A stretch of 34,236 nucleotides of DNA from Clostridia bacterium (GTDB lineage Bacteria > Bacillota > Clostridia > Oscillospirales > Acutalibacteraceae): contig JAFODS010000032.1 in assembly GCA_017380575.1 (NCBI GenBank), positions 1 through 34,236 on the forward strand, given 5' to 3'. A model generated the notes under the pieces. It saw only the letters and a list, made by a program, of their open reading frames with translations. It did no database searches and was not told the origin of the DNA. A program made the position numbers and the translations under genes. This document shows, in pieces, positions 15,902 through 34,236 of the stretch (positions are counted from its first letter, which is position 1; each line of letters begins with the position of its first letter).

Positions 15902-17719
15902 ATGATGAAAAAATTTCTTTGCTCGTTACTCGTTTTTATAATTATTATAACATCTTCAGCTATAGCTTTTTCAAAAAGTATGGGTGACGTAAATTCTGAC
16001 GGAAACGTCAACTCTTCCGATGCTTTGCTTATTCTTAAGAGCAGTGTCGGTATGAACCCTGCGGATTTCAATGCTTCATTGGCTGATATGAACGAAGACG
16101 GTAACATCAACTCTTCCGATGCTCTTATTGTGCTTAAAATCTCTGTCGGATTGATTAACCCTGATGTAGAAAAGGAAAACCCGCTCAAATTTGATAAATC
16201 TCAGCTTATTGAGTATTACAATTCTTGTTTGAAGAAGTCTTATTCATATGAAATAAACGCTACTAAGGTTGAACAGGTTGATATGAAGGTTTCGGATGTT
16301 GGTATGGGTGGAAGTGCAGCGATTAATACTGATTCTTTGGTCAACTCAATTATTGCTAACAATACAAAAAACAACGGTGTTGTACAGACAAAAAGCTTCA
16401 CAAACGGTAAGGCAACTGATGATAATTCTCCCGTTGAAAAATTTGTAGCTCCTACAAATCTTTACGACGAAGCAGTAAGAACAATCAATATTCAGAAGAA
16501 CGGTACAGGCTATCAGATCGTCATTAATCTCAAATCTGAATCTTGTCCGTATAATGAAACTGCCGAATATAATGCTTCCTGTTCATGGCCTCTTGATATT
16601 AATGCAATTGATTTCGGTCAGGCTATTACAATTCAGGAATGCACATTTAACTATCCCGGCACAAGGCTTGTAGCAAATATTGACAGCGAAGGCAGGGTAA
16701 CGACATTAAAAACAGAAATGCCACTTACTGTTACAAACGCAACAGCAAAGGCTATGGGAATTAATATCACAGTCGGCTCAATTGAGGGTAAATGGACTTG
16801 CCAAAATACAATGGCGATTGTAAAGCCATCCGAACCGGGCAGTTCAAATAACAGACCGAACGGTGGCTCAAACAGCGGTTCAAATAACAAACCGAGTACA
16901 GATAAAGAGCAGGTTGATAACTCTAAACCCGCACCATCTATGAAGGAAATAATTGAAGCTATTCAATCGGTAGCAAAAGAAAACATTACAATTGACAATA
17001 ATGGAAATGTTAACATTGAAAACGATGCCACTAAGGATACTGGTCTTTTCGGCTTCAAGTATTCAACAACAGAGAAATGTTTTATCACCGCTGAGGATGC
17101 ATGGCAGAGACAGTACGGTTATAACGAATTTAATGACGAATCCGCTCCCGTTCTTGCAATTTCGTATGATACAATGCGTGTATACTTCGATTATGACGGA
17201 CTTCAATGGATGATTCAGTATTGGAAGGGTCAGTACGGCCTTGTTCTTGTAGGTGCCGAAATCGGTATCTACAACAGACTTGAAACTTCATCACCGAGTA
17301 CTCATTACAACTGTGCAAGTGGTGAATCTGAGATTTTTCAAAGCATGAACGTTTATCAGTGTGGAACAGAAGACTCAAACGAATACAAGCTTATTCTTTC
17401 AAGAAATCCGACAAACACATGGTGGTGCACAGGCTTCGTTCCGGGTACACTTGCATTCGCAAAGTATAACGTAAACGCTGACTATACAAACCGTCTTCGT
17501 GTTGACTCGAAGCTTACTCTCAAGACTCCTGAAATGGCTCAGGCATTTATGGAAGGTCTTCGAAAGGTTGACACAATTTACAATAACACAGCAGGTGGCT
17601 CAACACGTAATATATCCTTTGTTGAAATGTCTTCGGTTGAAGAGTACGAAACAAGGGCAGCAAAAGCTAAGTTCTTCCTCGAAGAGGACGGCGTTACTGT
17701 AAGAGTCTGTTGGAGATAA
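15902..17719 (+). CDS. Secreted protein: N-terminal dockerin, linker, C-terminal DUF4474-like domain
   Basis: 605 residues. AAGGAG precedes the tandem ATG-ATG start. Residues 1-26 form a signal peptide. Residues 28-85 form a full dockerin with two calcium loops, GDVNSDGNVNSSDA and ADMNEDGNINSSDA, each with an LxILKxSVG helix. Residues about 100-305 are a domain also found, at low similarity, in the third protein of this group (18913-19818). Residues about 306-345 are a Ser/Asn/Gly/Pro-rich linker. Residues about 380-605 resemble DUF4474: a DAWQRQYGYN motif, then VYFDYDGLQWMIQYWKGQYG, then TWWCTGF. It has no known activity. The dockerin suggests attachment to a cohesin-bearing scaffold. It begins 19 bases after the hydrolase gene and is probably cotranscribed with it. 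The duplicated tail downstream suggests it was inserted here. Confidence 0.88.
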   Translation: MMKKFLCSLLVFIIIITSSAIAFSKSMGDVNSDGNVNSSDALLILKSSVGMNPADFNASLADMNEDGNINSSDALIVLKISVGLINPDVEKENPLKFDKSQLIEYYNSCLKKSYSYEINATKVEQVDMKVSDVGMGGSAAINTDSLVNSIIANNTKNNGVVQTKSFTNGKATDDNSPVEKFVAPTNLYDEAVRTINIQKNGTGYQIVINLKSESCPYNETAEYNASCSWPLDINAIDFGQAITIQECTFNYPGTRLVANIDSEGRVTTLKTEMPLTVTNATAKAMGINITVGSIEGKWTCQNTMAIVKPSEPGSSNNRPNGGSNSGSNNKPSTDKEQVDNSKPAPSMKEIIEAIQSVAKENITIDNNGNVNIENDATKDTGLFGFKYSTTEKCFITAEDAWQRQYGYNEFNDESAPVLAISYDTMRVYFDYDGLQWMIQYWKGQYGLVLVGAEIGIYNRLETSSPSTHYNCASGESEIFQSMNVYQCGTEDSNEYKLILSRNPTNTWWCTGFVPGTLAFAKYNVNADYTNRLRVDSKLTLKTPEMAQAFMEGLRKVDTIYNNTAGGSTRNISFVEMSSVEEYETRAAKAKFFLEEDGVTVRVCWR

Positions 17720-18052: not shown

Positions 18053-18330
18053 AGGAGGATTCTGCAATGAAAAAGTTATTTTGTGTAATGCTTACTCTCG
18101 GTATTCTTCTCACTTCAACAGTCACAGCATTTGCCGCAACTAAAGGCGATGTAAACTCAGACGGCAAACTCAACTCTTCCGACGCTCTTGCTATTCTGCA
18201 GTATTCCGTCGGCTCAAATCCCAAAAAATTCAACAAAAACGTTGCTGATATGAATAATGACAGTAAGATTAATTCTTCGGATGCTCTTTCTGTACTTAAG
18301 ATTTCAGTCGGATTGGTTGACGGTGATACA
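18053..18330 (+). repeat. Tandem duplicate unit 1: ribosome site, signal peptide and dockerin
   Basis: From the AGGAGG site to the end of the dockerin, this is nearly identical at DNA level to 18899-19175. Similarity stops at the end of the dockerin. Confidence 0.9.
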
Positions 18331-18867
18331 AATACACCAAAAACCACTCTTCGTGACGAGGTTATTGCAAGCGTTATTAAGGATAAAAAATTCACTCTCT
18401 CGATGACAATTATCGGTGAAGGAGAAGAAATTCCTACAACGGTGACAATGGACGGCAATAACTTCGCTGCAGCTCTTTCACTTGACGGAATGGACTCAAG
18501 AATTATTACCAAAGGCGGTAAAACCTATATCGCTCTTGATTATCTGGGAACCAAAATGTATATGGAAACCGACGACGATATGGGCGTCGGTGACTTTATA
18601 AACACTGAATCTGATAACGATACTTATGTAAAAACTACTACCGTTAAGGAAGGCAGTAAAACATACACCTGCGAAGAATACAAATCAACTGACGGAACTG
18701 TTGCAAAGTACTACTTTGAAGGCAAAAAGTGGGTTCGTCAGGAAGTTATTGACGGTAGCACTATTGCAATCAGCAAAATTCACGAACTCAAAGACAGCGT
18801 TGACTGTTCGCTCTTTGACCTGACGGGTTATGAAAAACTCGACCCGGGTGCTATAAGACCAATGTAA
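18067..18867 (+). CDS. Secreted N-terminal-dockerin protein with LolA/LppX-like C-terminal domain
   Basis: 266 residues. AGGAGG lies eight bases before the ATG. Residues 1-24 form a signal peptide ending in AFA. Residues 26-85 form a dockerin with loops GDVNSDGKLNSSDA and ADMNNDSKINSSDA (the second has Ser in place of Gly at the loop turn). Residues about 95-266 are a beta-rich domain with repeated short strands (YIALDYLGTKMYME, then KTYTCEEYKSTDGTVAKYYFEGKKW), the pattern of LolA/LppX-type curved-sheet proteins that often bind lipids or act as sensors. This fold call is inference. There is no catalytic motif. It is the first gene of a two-gene unit with its own promoter. Confidence 0.85.
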   Translation: MKKLFCVMLTLGILLTSTVTAFAATKGDVNSDGKLNSSDALAILQYSVGSNPKKFNKNVADMNNDSKINSSDALSVLKISVGLVDGDTNTPKTTLRDEVIASVIKDKKFTLSMTIIGEGEEIPTTVTMDGNNFAAALSLDGMDSRIITKGGKTYIALDYLGTKMYMETDDDMGVGDFINTESDNDTYVKTTTVKEGSKTYTCEEYKSTDGTVAKYYFEGKKWVRQEVIDGSTIAISKIHELKDSVDCSLFDLTGYEKLDPGAIRPM

Positions 18868-18898: not shown

Positions 18899-19175
18899 AG
18901 GAGGATTCTGCAATGAAAAAATTATTTTGTGTATTACTTACTCTCGGCATTCTGCTCACTTCAACAGTCACAGCATTTGCCGCAACTAAAGGCGATGTAA
19001 ACTCAGACGGCAAACTCAACTCTTCGGATGCGTTGCTTATTCTTCAGTATTCCGTCGGCTCAAATCCCAAAAATTTCAACAAAAACGTTGCTGATATGAA
19101 TGATGACAGCAAAATCAATTCTTCGGATGCGCTTGTCGTTCTTAAAATTTCAGTTGGATTGATTGATCCTGATAA
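18899..19175 (+). repeat. Tandem duplicate unit 2: ribosome site, signal peptide and dockerin
   Basis: Second copy of 18053-18330. Differences are scattered and mostly silent. Confidence 0.9.
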
Positions 19176-19818
19176 TGATTCTTCCGTTCCTTCCAATGCA
19201 GCTGAATTGCTTGAATATTTCAATACAGCTATCAACAGAGTAAAAACTGATGCTAAATCTGTCGAACAGAAATCCGTTACAAACTACCTTGCAGGCAAAA
19301 CCACTATCTCGGGCAGTATACAAAGCGTTTATAACATGCTCGGCGGTGACGAATGGTTGAATCAGATGTTTAAAGACAACTCTCTGGGTGCTGATACATA
19401 CAAAGGTGCTGAAATCAAGACTTATTTCCCCGTTGAAGGCGAAAGCTACGCAAGTAAGCTTACGGTTGATGATATCAAATCTGCTACATTAAAAGAAAAT
19501 GACGGTGTTTATACAATCACAATCGTAACACTTGATGACGCCAAGTCGGATTCGTATCAACACGGTACGGGTCACAACCCGAAAGCATTCAGCATTATCG
19601 TGCCTGACGACGTTAACGAAAACATTCCTCCTGTTGCAAAGAATACGGTCGGTACAGTTTCTCTTGCCTATCCCTCTTCAACAATCAAAGTTACGGTAGA
19701 TGCAAAAACAGGTAATGTTCTTACAGCAGAATATGTTCTTAACTGGACTCTTTACTTTGATAAAGCAGGCATAATTATCCCCTGCGGTACAAAGTCAGTT
19801 TATGAAATCAATTGGTAA
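18913..19818 (+). CDS. Secreted N-terminal-dockerin protein with a different C-terminal domain
   Basis: 301 residues, 45 bases after the preceding gene. The signal peptide and dockerin (residues 1-85) are almost the same as in the preceding protein. The loops are GDVNSDGKLNSSDA and ADMNDDSKINSSDA, again with Ser at the second loop's glycine position. Residues about 95-301 are unrelated to the neighbour's C-terminus but resemble residues 100-305 of the DUF4474 protein: an opening helix (ELLEYFNTAINRVK), a central mixed region, and a closing strand pair with IKVTVDAKTGNVLTAEYVL. Function unknown; extracellular. It ends before a strong terminator at 19835-19860. Confidence 0.85.
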   Translation: MKKLFCVLLTLGILLTSTVTAFAATKGDVNSDGKLNSSDALLILQYSVGSNPKNFNKNVADMNDDSKINSSDALVVLKISVGLIDPDNDSSVPSNAAELLEYFNTAINRVKTDAKSVEQKSVTNYLAGKTTISGSIQSVYNMLGGDEWLNQMFKDNSLGADTYKGAEIKTYFPVEGESYASKLTVDDIKSATLKENDGVYTITIVTLDDAKSDSYQHGTGHNPKAFSIIVPDDVNENIPPVAKNTVGTVSLAYPSSTIKVTVDAKTGNVLTAEYVLNWTLYFDKAGIIIPCGTKSVYEINW

Positions 19819-21824: not shown

Positions 21825-23075
21825 ATGGAATTACACGAAAACAGTCAGGCACCTGAGGTCGCGATGCTTGTCGGCATCGATATGGACACCTACGATGCTG
21901 AAGTTTCGATTGATGAGCTTGAAGAGCTTGCACGCACTGCAGGTGCTGTTGTTTGTGCAAAGACATTGCAGAAGCGTGACCGTCCCGACTCGGCAACATA
22001 CGTCGGCAGCGGCAAGCTTGAAGAAATTAAAGAATTTGCTGAAGCAAACGATGTTGACCTGCTTATTTTTGACGGTGAGCTTACTCCTTCACAGCAGAGA
22101 AATATCGAAAACGAAACGGATATACGTGTTATCGACCGTACAACGTTGATTCTTGATATCTTTGCCGCAAGAGCCCGAAGCGGAGAAGGTAAAATTCAGG
22201 TTGAGCTTGCTCAGCTGAAATATTCTCTTCCGCGACTTGGCGGTAAGGGTGTTCAGCTTTCAAGGCTTGGTGGCGGTATCGGTACACGAGGTCCCGGTGA
22301 AACAAAGCTCGAGAGCGACAGACGTCACATCCGAAGAAGAATCCAGAGCCTTGAAGAAGATCTCAAGGAAATTGCAAAACGTCGTGAACAGCTTCGTACA
22401 AGACGAGAAAAGGACGGAGTTGAAACCGTTGCAATCGTCGGATACACAAACGCAGGAAAATCAACCCTTATGAATGCGCTTACGAATGCAGGCGTTCTTG
22501 CAGAAAACAAGCTTTTTGCGACGCTCGACCCGACTTCAAGAGCATTGATTCTCCCCGACGGACGAAGCGTTATGCTCATCGATACGGTTGGTCTTATCCG
22601 CAGACTTCCGCACCACCTTGTTCAGGCTTTCCACTCAACGCTTGAAGAAGCGGCATCAGCTTCCGTTATCCTTAACGTGTGCGACGCTTCCGACCCGTGC
22701 TGTGCTGAGCATCTTGCGGTTACGAAGAGCCTTCTTGAATCGCTCGGTTGCGAAGGCAAGCCTATTGTTTCAGTTCTTAACAAATGTGACCTTTGCGATA
22801 ATACATTCGTGCTTCCCGCTGAAGGTAAGTTTGTTATGATTTCTGCACTCAACGAGCGAGGCTTTGACAATCTGCTTGCACAGATTCAGCTTGCTTTACC
22901 GCTGACACGTAAAAAGGCGGAGCTTCTTATCCCCTACAGCGACGGCGGGCTTGTAAATTATATCCGTGAAGACGGTGTTCTTCTTGAAGAAGATTACCGT
23001 GGCGACGGAATTTACATTAAAGCAATTGTTGATATAATATTCTTAGAAAAGCACAAAGACTATATTATAGGCTAA
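21825..23075 (+). CDS. hflX: Ribosome-associated GTPase HflX
   Basis: 416 residues. HflX is a GTPase that binds the 50S subunit and splits stalled or hibernating 70S ribosomes, notably under stress. The N-terminal HflX domain spans 1-200 and contains the conserved GGKGVQLSRLGGGIGTRGPG region and a charged coiled coil (RRRIQSLEEDLKEIAKRREQ). The G domain follows: G1 GYTNAGKST (206-214), G3 DTVGLI, G4 NKCD. A C-terminal domain of about 50 residues ends the protein. It is coupled to galE with a three-base gap, its ribosome site (AAGGATA) lying inside the galE end, so expression probably depends on galE translation. Confidence 0.96.
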   Translation: MELHENSQAPEVAMLVGIDMDTYDAEVSIDELEELARTAGAVVCAKTLQKRDRPDSATYVGSGKLEEIKEFAEANDVDLLIFDGELTPSQQRNIENETDIRVIDRTTLILDIFAARARSGEGKIQVELAQLKYSLPRLGGKGVQLSRLGGGIGTRGPGETKLESDRRHIRRRIQSLEEDLKEIAKRREQLRTRREKDGVETVAIVGYTNAGKSTLMNALTNAGVLAENKLFATLDPTSRALILPDGRSVMLIDTVGLIRRLPHHLVQAFHSTLEEAASASVILNVCDASDPCCAEHLAVTKSLLESLGCEGKPIVSVLNKCDLCDNTFVLPAEGKFVMISALNERGFDNLLAQIQLALPLTRKKAELLIPYSDGGLVNYIREDGVLLEEDYRGDGIYIKAIVDIIFLEKHKDYIIG

Positions 23076-23126: not shown

Positions 23127-23718
23127 CAGACAAATTTGGGGTTGTTGATTTCTTTGTTTTCCACCTCATTCGCCTCGTCCCTCGGCACCTTCTCCTCGAG
23201 GAGAAGGCTGAAAAACTACGCAAATCCAAGGTTTCCCCTTGAGGGGATTCCCCTGACAGGGGAAATGTCGCGTAGCGACAAAGGGGTGCCCGTTTTCGGA
23301 GAAAAAGGCTACGCCGTAGGCGGTGGTGAGGTGTAGGTTGCAACGCAACCGTATATTCAAAACACCCCGACAAACCCGAATTTAGCAGGATATTTAAAAT
23401 CTTCTTGTAGGGTGTGACGCTTGCGACACACCGTTAAATACAGCAGAATATCGGCACGTCGCAAGCGTCGTGCCCTACGAACCCAGTTTCAAATAACCGT
23501 GTAGGGGACGACGTCCTCGATGTCCCGTCAGAAATGTACAAAATTGGCGGCAGATGATATCTGCCCCTACGAACCTTGTTTCAGTCAACTGCGTAGGGAC
23601 GGGCGTCCTCGACCGTCCGTTAACACAGCAGAATCTGCGGACCGTCCGGGAGGCCGGTCCCTACGCGCACAGAGATAGATTGTGCAAAATCAAAGAGTTC
23701 AACAAACCCGAAATTGTT
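23127..23718 (+). repeat. Composite palindromic repeat, copy A
   Basis: It fills the gap between two convergent terminators. In order: boundary palindrome near 23130, inverted-repeat-rich part (about 23160-23336), boundary motif (23366-23383), three REPIN-like doublets (23407-23478, 23501-23570, 23593-23664), boundary motif (23701-23718). Each doublet starts GTAGGG and ends CCCTAC. Copies B and C elsewhere in the window have the same order. No coding potential is evident. Confidence 0.85.
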
Positions 23719-23783: not shown

Positions 23784-25007
23784 TTACTGCTTTGCGCCGT
23801 TGTCGAACATTTCGAGGACTTTTACTGAAGCTGCGAAGCAATCTGCAAGGCAGGACGGATTAAGAGCATCCGGTGTGTCAAGTCTTGTATGATAGAAATC
23901 AGGAAGTGCATGGTTGAGTGCTGTAACACCTGTTGCACGCATACCTGCCTGAGCAAAAGCTGCTGAGTCAGTTGCACCGCCAAGAGGAGGAACAAAGCCC
24001 TTCTTGCAGGGAATCTTAAGCTCTTCGCAAGCTTCCATAAACAAGTCTGAAACATCCTTGTCAACCTTAACTGTAGCGTTGAGGTCACGGTAGTTTACCA
24101 TAAGCTGTTCATTCTGAGCGATTGTGTCGTATGAATAAACGAAAGTAGGAACATCGTTAAATTCGTCCTTATGCTTTGCAGCCCAAGCCTTTGCACCGCG
24201 AAGACCTGCTTCTTCTGAACCTGTAAGAACAACACCGATTTCTGTGTTTTCAAGTTCAATGCCTTCGTCCTTGAGCATCTTAAGGATTGCCATACCAATG
24301 TAGCAACCTGAAAGGTTATCGTTTGCACCGTCAACGATTCTCTTTTCGTTCCACATAAAGTAAAGACCGAACCAGAAAGGAACAAATGCAATAGTAACAA
24401 GACCGAGAGTTTTTGCAAGCTCGGGGTTTGCATCAAATGCTCCTACAATCTTTGCGATTGAAATGCCAAGAAGGTAGAACGCACCAAGGAAGCAGAACAT
24501 CATATGAAGGTCAAAGCCGAGGTATGTAAACTTATACTTGAAAGGCCATTCCCAAGCACCGTCAGTATGACCGTTGAAGATAATTCTACGCTTAACTTCA
24601 CCTGTCGGCTTTTTGAAACCGGCAACGTTGTGACCTGTTTTCTCAGGGAAGAATTTGTCAACAACCTTTTTGTAAAGACCGAACTGAAGGACACAAAGAA
24701 TGAGACCTACTGCGATAAAAGCAACCGAAAGCCAAGGAATAAAGAAGTAACAAGCAAGAGCTATGAAGCAGAATGTGATTGTAAAGTAAATCCAGCCAAG
24801 GAAAGCATTCGGATTTTCTTTGAATCCCTCAACATAAACTTCGTCGCAGCCGAGTTTTTTCATTTCTTCTGCACAGTAGTCGCTGGCCTGCTTTTCACCG
24901 AGATCACCGGGGCCTCTTTTTTCAAATGTGTTGCATATATATGTTATTTCATCAACCATATATTTTGCCGCCTGATCTTTTTTGTCAATAATACTTTTAA
25001 GATTCAT
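23784..25007 (-). CDS. Membrane-embedded M28-family zinc aminopeptidase
   Basis: 407 residues from ATG 25007. A TTG five codons upstream overlaps the GGGAG ribosome site and is rejected as the start. The fold is M28 (Zn-dependent aminopeptidase). Metal ligands in order: H147/D149 in FNGHTDGAWEWP, D230 in GANDNLSG, the E265-E266 pair in TGSEEAGLRG, an Asp in YSYDT, and a late His in FYHTRLDTP. All expected ligands seem present. Two hydrophobic hairpins are unusual: residues about 70-108 after the N-terminal segment, and about 165-220 inside the peptidase domain between the first and second metal motifs. There is no signal peptide. It is probably a membrane-bound enzyme that hydrolyses short peptides; side of the membrane and substrate are not known. 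Confidence 0.9.
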   Translation of the reverse strand: MNLKSIIDKKDQAAKYMVDEITYICNTFEKRGPGDLGEKQASDYCAEEMKKLGCDEVYVEGFKENPNAFLGWIYFTITFCFIALACYFFIPWLSVAFIAVGLILCVLQFGLYKKVVDKFFPEKTGHNVAGFKKPTGEVKRRIIFNGHTDGAWEWPFKYKFTYLGFDLHMMFCFLGAFYLLGISIAKIVGAFDANPELAKTLGLVTIAFVPFWFGLYFMWNEKRIVDGANDNLSGCYIGMAILKMLKDEGIELENTEIGVVLTGSEEAGLRGAKAWAAKHKDEFNDVPTFVYSYDTIAQNEQLMVNYRDLNATVKVDKDVSDLFMEACEELKIPCKKGFVPPLGGATDSAAFAQAGMRATGVTALNHALPDFYHTRLDTPDALNPSCLADCFAASVKVLEMFDNGAKQ

Positions 25008-25015
25008 TTTTTCAT

Positions 25016-25020
25016 CTCCC
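25016..25020 (-). promoter_or_regulatory. Ribosome binding site deciding the M28 gene start
   Basis: GGGAG on the minus strand, eight bases before ATG 25007. Confidence 0.7.
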
Positions 25021-25036
25021 AAGAAATATTATGGAC

Positions 25037-28390: not shown

Positions 28391-29947
28391 TTACTTTGCA
28401 ATGTCAATAACTCGATTTTCACGAATAACATTGACCTTGATCTGTCCGGGATACTCGAGTTCTTCCTCGATTTTCTTAACGATATCCCTTGCAACCAATA
28501 CCATCTGGTCGTCAGATACAGCCTCAGGCTTAACCATAATTCTGACTTCACGGCCTGCCTGAATTGCGTATGATTTATCAACGCACGGGAATGAGCTTGT
28601 AATTTCTTCAAGCTTTTCAAGTCGCTTGATGTAATTCTGAAGATTTTCACGTCTTGCACCCGGTCTTGCTGCTGAAACCGCATCGGCTGCCTGAACAAGA
28701 CAAGCAACGATTGTTTTAGCCTCAACGTCACCGTGGTGAGCATGAATTGCATGAGTAACAGCTTCGTTTTCTCTGTACTTCTTAGCGTACTCAACGCCGA
28801 GTTCGATGTGTGTACCTTCCATTTCGTGGTCAAGTGCCTTACCGATATCGTGAAGAAGACCTGCACGCTTTGCTGTCTTGACATCTGCGCCTAACTCCGC
28901 AGCCATAAGACCTGCAATGTAAGAAACTTCCAAAGAGTGGTTAAGTACGTTCTGACCGTAACTTGTACGGTATTTCAGCTTGCCAAGCTGTTTGATAAGT
29001 TCAGGATGAATTCCGTTGACACCTGCGTCAATAGCGGCTCTTTCACCTGTCTGCTTGATTGTGTGTTCAACTTCACGCTTTGACTTTTCGTAAAGCTCCT
29101 CAATTCTTGTCGGATGAATACGTCCGTCTGCGATAAGTTTTTCAAGAGTAAGTCTTGCAATTTCACGGCGTACCGGCTCAAAGCAGGATACTGTGATTGC
29201 TTCGGGTGTGTCGTCAATAATGAGGTCAACACCTGTGATTGTTTCAAGGGCTCTGATGTTACGACCCTCACGGCCGATGATACGACCCTTCATTTCGTCA
29301 TTCGGTAATGCTACGACTGATACAGTTGCATCCGCACTGTGGTCAGCAGCACAACGCTGAATTGCCGTCGCAATGATTTCGCGTGCTTTTTCTTCTGCTT
29401 CGTCTCTTGTCTTCTGTTCGTAGTCAAGAATCTTGACTGCTTTTTCGTGAACAAGACTGTCTTCAAGAGTTTTGAGAAGATAATCTCTTGCCTGGTCTTT
29501 AGTGTAGCCTGAAATTCTTTCAAGCATTTCAATCTGGCTACGCTTGATTGTTTCAATTTCTTCCGCTTTAAGTTCAGCGTCCTTGATTTTTGAAGCGAGA
29601 GTTTCTTCTTTCTTTTCGATATTCTCGATTTTCTTATCAAGGCTTTCTTCCTTCTGAACGAGTCTGCGTTCCTGTCGCTGCAGCTCACTGCGACGTTCAC
29701 GATTCTCGCGTTCAGCTTCCGTACGCTGCTTATGAATCTCGTCTTTTGCTTCAAGGATAGCTTCCTTTTTCTTTGACTCAGCCTTTGAAATAGCTTCGTT
29801 AAGAATTCTGGTAGCTTCCTGCTGAGCAGAGCCGATAGCTGATTCAGCAACCTTTTTGCGGTAGATGATACCAATCGCAACACCAATTGCAAGAGCCACA
29901 AGCGCAGCAGCGACAATGGCAATTACAAATATTGATGTTTTAATCAA
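28391..29947 (-). CDS. rny: Ribonuclease Y
   Basis: 518 residues, the usual length. RNase Y is a membrane-anchored endoribonuclease that starts mRNA decay in Firmicutes. Residues 4-26 form the single N-terminal membrane helix. Residues about 30-205 form a long charged coiled coil. The KH domain, about 208-270, contains [17 protein letters not shown]. The HD domain, about 330-425, has the metal motif [12 protein letters not shown]. The C-terminal conserved region ends the protein. The start codon is TTG, ten bases after a full AGGAGGTG. It is a single-gene unit with promoter 30091-30119 and terminator 28336-28363. Confidence 0.97.
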
Positions 29948-30233: not shown

Positions 30234-30765
30234 TCCCGACAAATTCGGGTTTGTGGAGTTCTTTGATTTCGCACAATCTGATTCTGTGTTCGTAGGGATG
30301 GGCCTCCCGGACCATCCGCAGATTCTGCTGAGTTAACGGACGGTCGAGGACGCCCGTCCCTACTGAAACAAGGTTCGTAGGGGCAGATATTATCTGCCCG
30401 ACATTTTGCAAATTTCTGACGGGACGTCGTCCCCTACATACACGCCTGATTCTGTTTTGTAGGGCACGACGTTTACGACGTGCCGATATTCTGCTGTATT
30501 TAACGGTGTGTCGCAAGCGTCACACCCTACAAGAAGGTTTTAAATATCCTGCTAAATTCGGGTTTGTCGGGGTGCTTGGGTTTTGCAGAATCCAATACCT
30601 CCATCTGACGAGGGAGGTGGATTTTGCGAAGCAAAAGACGGAGGGAGAGATAGCACAAGCTTTTACTACCCCTCAGTCTTGCCTACGGCAAGCCAGCTCC
30701 CCTGACAAGTGGAGCTACGCCCTTTTTTAGCTAAAAAAGAAGAACTCCACAAGCCCAAATTTATC
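30234..30765 (-). repeat. Composite palindromic repeat, copy B (inverted)
   Basis: Read on the minus strand it has the same order as copy A: boundary palindrome (30750-30765), inverted-repeat-rich part (about 30598-30727), boundary motif (30552-30574), three REPIN-like doublets (30459-30530, 30377-30437, 30292-30363), boundary palindrome (30234-30255). The middle doublet has lost about ten bases relative to copy A. Confidence 0.85.
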
Positions 30766-31074: not shown

Positions 31075-31797
31075 ATGAAACTTGCAGTTCAGCTTTATTC
31101 AGTCAGAGACGACTACAAAACAGGCGAAGAATTTCTTAAGATTCTTGAAAAAGTTAAGGAAATCGGTTTTGAGGGCGTTGAGTTTGCAGGCTTCGGCGGT
31201 TGTGAACCCGAAGTAATCAAAGCAAAGCTCGATGAGCTCGGACTTACAGCAGTCGGCTGCCATATGGGCGTTGAAAATTTCAAGGCTGACAAGATTGAAG
31301 AAACAATCCGTATCGCTAAGGTTCTCGGAATGAAATACGTCGGTACAGGCGGTGCACCGCATACCACAGCTGAAGAAGTTCAGGAGCTTGTTGATATTTA
31401 CACATACGCTAATGAAATCGGTGCAAAGGAAGGCATCAAATTCTACTATCATAACCACACTGAAGAATTTGAAATTGAATTTGACGGCAGAAAATGCATG
31501 GACGTTATTGCTGACGGTGCATACCTTGAGCTTGACACATACTGGAGCTTCTGCGGTGGCGCTGACAACTATACATATATTAAAGACAATACAGATAAAA
31601 TCATCCTTCTTCATATCAAAGACGGTATCGACCGCAAGCCGACAGCCCTCGGTGAAGGTAACAACGACCTCCTTTCTGTTTTCAAAGCTGCGAAGGAAGT
31701 TGATATGGAATGGCTTGTTCTTGAAAATGATGATCCTGTTCCGACAGGTATTGAGGACATCACACGCAGTATGAAATACTTTGAAGCTAACTTATAA
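31075..31797 (+). CDS. Sugar phosphate isomerase/epimerase-like TIM barrel (short form)
   Basis: 240 residues, of the AP-endonuclease-2/xylose-isomerase-like TIM barrel superfamily. Candidate metal or active-site residues sit at strand ends: H126/H128 in FYYHNHTEEF, D154 in LELDTYW, H180 in ILLHIKDG and E217 in LVLEND. There is no signal peptide, so cytoplasmic. Family members isomerise, epimerise, dehydrate or cleave sugars and inositols, and the exact reaction cannot be read from sequence. It is the first gene of a three-gene operon: 12 bases to the next gene, which is also a TIM barrel, then an oxidoreductase. The ATG follows GGGAGG by ten bases. Confidence 0.88.
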   Translation: MKLAVQLYSVRDDYKTGEEFLKILEKVKEIGFEGVEFAGFGGCEPEVIKAKLDELGLTAVGCHMGVENFKADKIEETIRIAKVLGMKYVGTGGAPHTTAEEVQELVDIYTYANEIGAKEGIKFYYHNHTEEFEIEFDGRKCMDVIADGAYLELDTYWSFCGGADNYTYIKDNTDKIILLHIKDGIDRKPTALGEGNNDLLSVFKAAKEVDMEWLVLENDDPVPTGIEDITRSMKYFEANL

Positions 31798-33915: not shown

Positions 33916-34236
33916 ACAAATTCGGGTTTGTGGAGATGTTTGTTTTTGGATTTGAATATAAGCAAAGCCTCCCTTGCCTAAAGGGAGGTGGATTTTGCGA
34001 AGCAAAAGACGGAGGGATACTTTATAAAAACTTTGATTTTTCGCTGTTTTCTTCAAAAATATCCCCCAGTCACGACTTTGTCGTGCCAGCCCCCTTTAGG
34101 CAAGGGGGCCATAAAGGTGCACTATCCAAGAGACCGACAGACCCGAATTTGGCAGGATGTTTAAAACCTTCTTGTAGGGTGTGACGCTTGCGACACACCG
34201 TTAAAAACAGCAGAATATCGGCACGTCGTAAACGTC
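33916..34236 (+). repeat. Composite palindromic repeat, copy C (cut by right edge)
   Basis: Boundary palindrome ACAAATTCGGGTTTGT (33916-33931), then a part with terminal inverted repeats of about 19 bp (33967-33985 and 34091-34110), a boundary motif near 34128-34145, then the first REPIN-like doublet from 34174 to the edge. The order is as in copies A and B. Confidence 0.85.

Follow-up and report, generated by a model that had tools for sequence, protein, structure and literature searches.

The question raised by this locus is what a cluster of palindromic doublets represents, in which two palindromes face each other between GTAGGG and CCCTAC, and whether the hairpin itself is the thing selected or copied. 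The cluster lies in a stretch of 34,236 nucleotides (hereafter, the window) from a clostridial genome of the family Acutalibacteraceae, which is available as 2.52 Mb in 79 contigs, is 88.8% complete, and contains the window on contig C37. The explanation that accounts best for the observations, and that is held here to be probable, is that the doublets of the window are REPINs, non-autonomous paired REP hairpins that would be copied as folded single-stranded DNA by RAYT transposases, and that the RAYTs of this clostridial clade usually carry hairpins of their own.

Six complete doublets are present in the window, three in copy A of a cassette and three in its inverted copy B. Copy A (23360-23717, plus strand) consists of an array with conserved flanks, in which the motif CAAACCCGAA occurs at 23371 and 23703. 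Its doublet 1 (23407-23478, plus strand) is built of the arms F1L and F1R in the order GTAG foot, hairpin, spacer, hairpin, and CTAC foot; doublet 2 (23501-23570, plus strand) joins F2L, which has a mismatch in its stem, to F2R, the stem of which is nearly perfect; and doublet 3 (23593-23664, plus strand) is composed of F3L and F3R in the allele GGACCG/CGGTCC. The doublets are separated by linkers of 22 bp (23479-23500 and 23571-23592, features to which no strand applies), a spacing typical of the arrays of this genome. Copy B (30239-30577, minus strand) matches copy A in inverted orientation, the arms of the match in copy A being 23360-23481 and 23593-23717, and comprises doublet 3 at 30292-30363 with the allele GGATGG/CCATCC, doublet 2 at 30377-30437, which has a shortened F2L arm and is 61 bp long, and doublet 1 at 30459-30530, which has the commoner GTTTAC form of F1R, all on the minus strand. 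Copy C (34134-34236, plus strand) holds the left flank and doublet 1, is 93% identical to 23367-23469, and ends at the contig end (34236), where its last stem is only partly present. The window contains GTAGGG 17 times, whereas 100 shuffles have it 4.8 times on average and 10 times at most, and the six doublets, folded as single-stranded DNA, have z-scores of -5.47 to -2.48 relative to shuffled sequences.

The surroundings of the arrays bear on whether the hairpins act mainly as RNA, either as intergenic terminators or stability elements or, within RAYT messages, in the control of translation. Array A lies between converging ORFs (21825-23075, plus strand, and 23784-25022, minus strand), and the space between converging ORFs is a usual place for terminator and stability elements; RNA hairpins in a RAYT frame could, in addition, slow translation. 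This role is nonetheless improbable as the main one, as array B is situated between divergent ORFs (28391-29947, minus strand, and 31075-31797, plus strand), a scan of the window yielded no Rfam family at or above its gathering score, and the part conserved beyond the stem is the GTAG foot, which the account in PMC8266576 links to the cutting of single-stranded DNA by RAYTs.

In the genome as a whole, the pattern GTAGGG-N40-70-CCCTAC occurs at 90 places spread over many contigs, compared with a single place for the reversed control, which bears out the initial annotation in its description of triple REPIN-like doublets running from GTAGGG to CCCTAC. That the doublets are unrelated palindromes alike by chance has next to no probability given this difference and the excess of GTAGGG over shuffles, which together rule it out, as well as the recurring vocabulary of arms and the 22-bp linkers. 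The 87 of the 90 doublets that were gathered by script and classified are 61-73 bp long, with GTAG feet pointing outwards and REPs facing each other. They are grouped into 45 arrays, of which 12 consist of a single doublet, 26 of two, 5 of three, and 2 of four, and the linker between neighbouring doublets is 22 bp in 32 of the 38 cases measured.

Twelve arm types are distinguished among these 87 doublets, the main pairings called by the script being F3L/F3R (35), F2L/F2R (15), F6a/F6b (14), and F1L/F1R (7). Certain arms also enter other combinations, F2R with F4 in five doublets and F2L with F7 in another five, and no clear case of the same arm type at both ends was found among the 87, the sole F3L/F3L doublet called by the script being an F3R variant by eye. 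Many of the arms follow a common plan of six lower pairs, a 1x1 mismatch, two pairs, and a four-base loop. The doublets are REPINs with mixed ends, a name that is kept because E. coli, too, is known to have mosaics of different REP types. Arrays with mixed ends are found outside this genome as well, in G117 (the genome of the RAYT locus L108), which has 63 doublets, against 4 for the control, on several contigs, many of them with mixed arms and some in arrays with linkers of about 21 bp.

A search of the genome with the cassette gave at least 51 matches at an E-value of 0.001 or better, a lower bound given that the search scored 40 of 93 first-look candidates, and several of the relatives elsewhere in the genome are near full length. 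Doublet copy numbers are probably underestimates as well, because several contigs end in or near arrays (the window contig, at 34236, and also C12, C24, C38, C49, C75, and C79). The motif CAAACCCGAA or its complement, which can form an ACAAA/TTTGT hairpin, is found in the window at 30244, 30557, and 33921 in addition to the two positions in copy A. Of the 45 arrays, 35 have it on one side or both at a distance of no more than 120 nt, and 13 have it on both. A second, unrelated repeat, GGGAGGTGGATTTTGCGAAGCAAAAGACGGAGGG, is located near copies B and C (30610-30649 and 33980-34019, respectively). The window further encodes three paralogous, secreted-looking proteins (15902-17719, 18067-18867, and 18913-19818) with duplicated GDVNSDGKLNSSDAL-like stretches that resemble dockerin repeats.

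Differences between the copies of the window had been read in the initial annotation as compensatory changes, from which it concluded that the hairpin is selected or copied as a unit. The paired differences it quoted are real, but as evidence of compensation they are weak, one of them looking like a single switch and the other like copying. In the third doublet type (36 copies), the right hairpin has GGACCG/CGGTCC in 17 copies, GGATGG/CCATCC in 13, and one or more broken lower pairs in 6, with a few forms part-way between the two alleles, and the left hairpin is unbroken in 34 copies and has a broken lower pair in 2. For the 23 distinct rows of this type, the covariation score is 0.117, against 0.055 in shuffled rows and reached by 0 of 500 shuffles; the number of pairs changed on both sides (2 against 1.7) is not above that of shuffles, 368 of 500 of which reach it. 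Since the both-sided changes are confined to two adjacent pairs, the paired changes of the third type look like one inherited allele switch. Five of the 16 pairs depart only by unpaired cells, and with the broken pairs of both hairpins, the unpaired stem changes that had been named in advance as speaking against selection on the hairpin were thus encountered in part.

In the first doublet type, it is copy A that is the exception among seven full copies. The altered inner 10-mer of its doublet 1 and the inner 10-mer of the partner hairpin have the same sequence, ACGCTTGCGA, which points to local copying between the two hairpins. A more general form of this idea is that paired changes arise by hairpin-templated mutation or gene conversion, be it between arms, partner hairpins, or copies, the hairpin itself being under no selection. 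The shared 10-mer is what it would predict, pairing between the two hairpins of this doublet is possible over 21 positions, and two common alleles with part-way forms, as seen in the third type, are what recombination between copies would give. This origin of the paired changes is a serious contender, at somewhat less than even probability, and the few copies of the window are not, on their own, evidence of selection on the hairpin.

Evidence on the hairpin itself comes from the transposase genes. The search for a RAYT/Y1 transposase that the initial annotation had suggested retrieved four RAYT matches in the genome, on C16, C14, and C78, with a second one on C14. Five Y1 transposase matches were obtained, two of them IS200-like by score and three RAYT-like (L033, L034, and L035), and a profile search picked up the fourth RAYT of the genome, L173. 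As the initial annotation had stated, the window contains no REP-associated transposase: none is seen among its ORFs by inspection, and no RAYT/Y1 match falls on C37. Scanned against the NCBIfam family REP_Tyr_transpos (NF047646), the first three RAYTs give E-values from 1e-19 to 5e-21 with scores of 70.7-75 bits, which lie below the cut-off of 80. The H-x-H (HUH) and Y...NP motifs of class 2 are invariant in these three, and both H, the Y, and the N are invariant across 48 aligned relatives. For the AlphaFold model of one relative, L052 (mean pLDDT 84), the first match is 4ER8 (E-value 2.3e-7, TM 0.62), the structure of a RAYT bound to a REP hairpin. RAYTs are the likely agents of the doublets. 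The two strong Y1 matches, L031 and L032, were rejected as the cognate enzymes, L031 because it scores 151 bits with transpos_IS200 and 24.4 with REP_Tyr_transpos, as an IS200-like enzyme would, and L032, which has two stops, solely on its equally high Y1_Tnp score.

A GTAGGG hairpin is found within the reading frames of L033, L034, and L035, and a second, inverted hairpin lies in frame in L033 and L035 and beyond the stop in L034; in L173, too, both places are occupied by hairpins. Further RAYT loci were gathered by similarity to the RAYTs of this genome, from named genomes (the best 80 of 538) and from the same family (34 of 100 genomes with a match, some of them weak). The 108 ORF matches were brought to 104 by dropping four below 95 bits and the duplicate L131 and by adding L173; site 1 could be measured in 98 of these and site 2 in 102, and 97 were used for the counts of feet and phases and for the tree. 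Along the 104 ORFs, the stem profile has strong peaks at model columns 43-48 and 96-100, which flank the HUH motif, and only a third, small bump at columns 83-88.

Pairing at the two sites exceeds that of synonymous-codon shuffles, the mean stem being 6.55 at site 1 (n = 98) and 6.89 at site 2 (n = 102), against 3.85 and 4.02, respectively, in the shuffles, and stem levels reached in no more than 2 of 100 shuffles are attained by 53 ORFs at site 1 and 54 at site 2. Of 97 ORFs, 88 have GTAG at site 1, where it is in reading phase 0 in 86 of 90 occurrences and is followed by at least six pairs in 81 of 90; for GTAGs at other positions of these ORFs, the latter figure is 8 of 49. CTAC feet with at least six pairs make up 79 of 91 at site 2 and 4 of 84 elsewhere, and the site-2 feet are distributed over the three reading phases as 72, 18, and 1 of 91. 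When hairpins are picked by foot and loop alone, all six lower pairs are formed in 43 of 43 at site 1 and in 42 of 45 at site 2; the 3212 control windows with the same loop and no foot peak at one to two pairs, and 50 of them form all six. Synonymous-codon shuffles, selection by foot and loop, and counts of feet and phases are the fairer tests of pairing. In the L052 model, site 1 corresponds to a turn between two strands and site 2 to a loop with pLDDT below 50. One RAYT, L062, which is labelled Candidatus Collierbacteria, has its feet on the opposite sides, with hairpin-CTAC at site 1 and GTAG-hairpin at site 2.

The stems of the in-gene hairpins differ between lineages and remain paired. 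For 33 distinct sequences, 98.9% of the cells are paired (82.2 in shuffles), 43 cells are changed on both sides (11.4 in shuffles), and the covariation score is 0.447 (0.112 in shuffles), values that 0 of 500 shuffles reach in each case, and the score falls to 0.13 or less when the partners are slid. Two other counts stand out less, pairs changed on both sides numbering 4 against 2.9, a value that 13 of 500 shuffles reach, and further pair types 11 against 10.4, which 240 of 500 reach. The 19- and 20-nt in-gene hairpins likewise have varied yet paired stems; their tables, like the counts of agreement between sites, rest on hairpins chosen by best stem, which leans towards pairing. Support for the hairpin as a conserved unit, the other half of the initial proposal, thus comes from the RAYT genes of relatives rather than from the small number of copies in the window.

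The two sites also change in concert. The outer arm is the same at both in 57 of the 69 genes that have both feet (permutation mean 14.0, maximum 24 in 1000), and the hairpins are identical throughout in 35 of the 69. On a RAYT tree of 97 rows, from which the hairpin columns were left out and which is poorly resolved, with few columns and 48 of 94 inner branches open, there are 19 arm types at site 1 and 33 changes of arm type at site 1 against 32 at site 2. Because both sites change together while staying paired, either a single enzyme specificity or frequent copying between the sites would hold the two hairpins together. Conversion between sites could also produce the agreement in the absence of selection; however, conversion alone does not explain that GTAG is kept, that its phase is 0, and that its position is fixed over very different stems. 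Moreover, the 1x1 mismatch position is unpaired in 26 of 30 distinct 22-nt hairpins (a set picked by best stem), where templated correction should pair it.

With regard to recognition, the protein columns that share most mutual information with stem position 3 are, among the rows listed, column 131 and then column 130, which is a lead to a specificity code, confounded by descent. The W-Q that adjoins these columns is grouped in PMC6006769 with foot-contacting residues of the E. coli enzyme. A specificity code derived by mutual information was not adopted, the supporting pairs on starred branches being shown as just one or two.

In a wider sample, the in-gene position is not general among RAYTs. 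This sample, drawn from across the phylum and supplemented by three plasmid matches, contained 16 clear matches, 12 of which have hairpins outside the open frame, five at least one inside, and three none. Hairpins are found only outside in eight (L200, L201, L206, L207, L211, L212, L213, and L214) and neither inside nor outside the frame in L204, L208, and L215; those with at least one inside are L202, L203, L205, L209, and L210, in L205 and L210 just near the frame ends, and the first hairpin of L202 lies upstream of the annotated start. The 16 weaker matches of this sample (L216-L231) have no hairpins. The stretch at site 1 is at most 18 residues long in 11 of the 13 measured in the phylum and plasmid sample and 23-25 residues in 66 of the 88 among those listed for the clade. 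After 12 ORFs with short flanks were left out, 68 of the remaining 92 clade ORFs have at least two in-gene REPs, counted anywhere in the frame, and REPs within 500 bp outside are lacking in 54 of these 68 and present in 14. Because the site-1 stretch is longer in the clade and in-gene REPs mostly occur with no REP outside, the origin is read as an uptake of REPs into two loops of the gene, where they would have replaced the flanking REPs.

Such an uptake might have been no more than tolerated, the hairpins being REP insertions in flexible loops that play no part in the action of the enzyme. The shorter site-1 stretch outside the clade indicates that something was inserted, site 2 falls in the low-confidence loop and has its foot in two main reading phases, and in-gene REPs are interpreted as insertions by Quentin et al. 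(PMC6006769). The occupation of the same two places, the constant phase at site 1, and the prevalence of genes with no REP outside argue against mere tolerance, as does the retention of both hairpins by L145, L146, and L113 in genomes with no detected doublets (G014, G079, and G113), which makes it an unlikely account. L139 and L149 similarly keep the second hairpin in genomes with no detected doublets, and, as far as a pattern with exact feet can tell in genomes some of which are incomplete, the five loci together rule out that in-gene hairpins require dispersed doublets.

The correspondence between the hairpins of the RAYTs and the dispersed doublets is limited. In the window's genome, 7 of 174 doublet arms match exactly the first nine bases of the site-1 hairpin of one of its own RAYTs, three times that of L033 and four times that of L034; L173 and L035 have no exact match, and the L173 hairpin resembles type F6 by eye, apart from one pair in which both bases are exchanged. 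In those relatives for which all or most doublets were listed, inspection by eye identified an arm identical or similar to that in the gene in G117, G102, G115, G064, and G071, in the last of which a doublet lies about 1.2 kb from the RAYT, and no arm like it in G100, G110, G066, and G084. By a pattern that demands exact feet, and with some genomes being incomplete, no doublet was detected in 6 of 26 RAYT-bearing relatives (G015, G079, G014, G029, G113, and G114), and the count was not above the control in six more (G100, G102, G104, G105, G107, and G109). The assembly offers no RAYT hairpin with an exact match for most doublet arms, so that the arrays may in large part be left over from enzymes since lost.

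Taken as REPINs, the doublets would each be a mobile pair of REP hairpins with the GTAG feet facing outwards, and RAYT (TnpA_REP) enzymes would copy them as folded single-stranded DNA; we infer that RAYTs copied these doublets and that single-stranded DNA is the form in which the hairpin is read. A RAYT gene of the clade usually bears its own hairpins, in two loops of the protein: an in-frame GTAG hairpin precedes the HUH motif, and an inverted one follows it. A bolder proposal, offered tentatively and with rather less than even confidence, is that the recognition hairpins are built into the transposase frame, so that enzyme and substrate are inherited as one while each lineage drifts to a new stem, the two in-gene hairpins and the enzyme changing in step. 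To our knowledge, the recognition of REPs by RAYTs beyond GTAG is known from only a few studied pairs. If clade RAYTs do carry their cognate hairpins, the genome sequence alone would yield many enzyme-hairpin pairs, the drifting stems of the lineages would constitute a natural library of matched enzymes and substrates, and the specificity code of RAYTs would become testable by covariation and simple cutting assays. It would also show a way for a transposase to stay tied to its substrate without flanking ends.

Among known systems, the REPINs of Pseudomonas fluorescens, in which an inverted REP doublet of about 71 bp with a spacer is the unit, forms ordered clusters, and is presumed to be mobilised by a RAYT (PMC3116915), resemble the present doublets in the inverted unit of about 70 bp, the spacer, and the ordered clusters; dispersal in high copy number is likewise a trait of REPINs that the doublets share. 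As far as they are described in that report, they differ from the doublets discussed here, which have different arm types within each doublet, reuse some arms, and are mostly joined by 22-bp linkers. With the E. coli REP/BIME and RAYT system (PMC8266576), they share the GTAG foot, a hairpin broken by unpaired bases, and mosaics of REP types; the E. coli REPs have an AA/GC bulge in that account, unlike the 22-nt hairpins found here, in which a 1x1 mismatch lies above six lower pairs. The GTAG-tagged palindromes of Di Nocera et al. (2013; PMC3733652) are similar in that they often occur as dimers and sometimes lie in frame inside genes, and the paired REPs within RAYT genes set the present case apart from that account.

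The closest precedent is TnpA_REP subclass 2.4, in which REPs are inserted, generally between HuH and Y, in addition to the flanking REPs (PMC6006769). As in that subclass, REPs are located within an unbroken transposase frame, a variable insert lies between the HUH strand and the next helix, and the REPs are long with a G-C rich stem base. In comparison with the main text of PMC6006769, the clade described here differs in having two fixed sites, one before and one after the HUH motif, with stems mostly matched within a gene, and its genes are usually devoid of a flanking REP within 500 bp. REPs inside subclass 2.4 RAYT genes have thus already been reported (Quentin 2018, PMC6006769), and the fixed pair of sites around the HUH motif, the matched stems, and their covariation appear to extend that report and to be new with respect to the main-text passages of the literature consulted.
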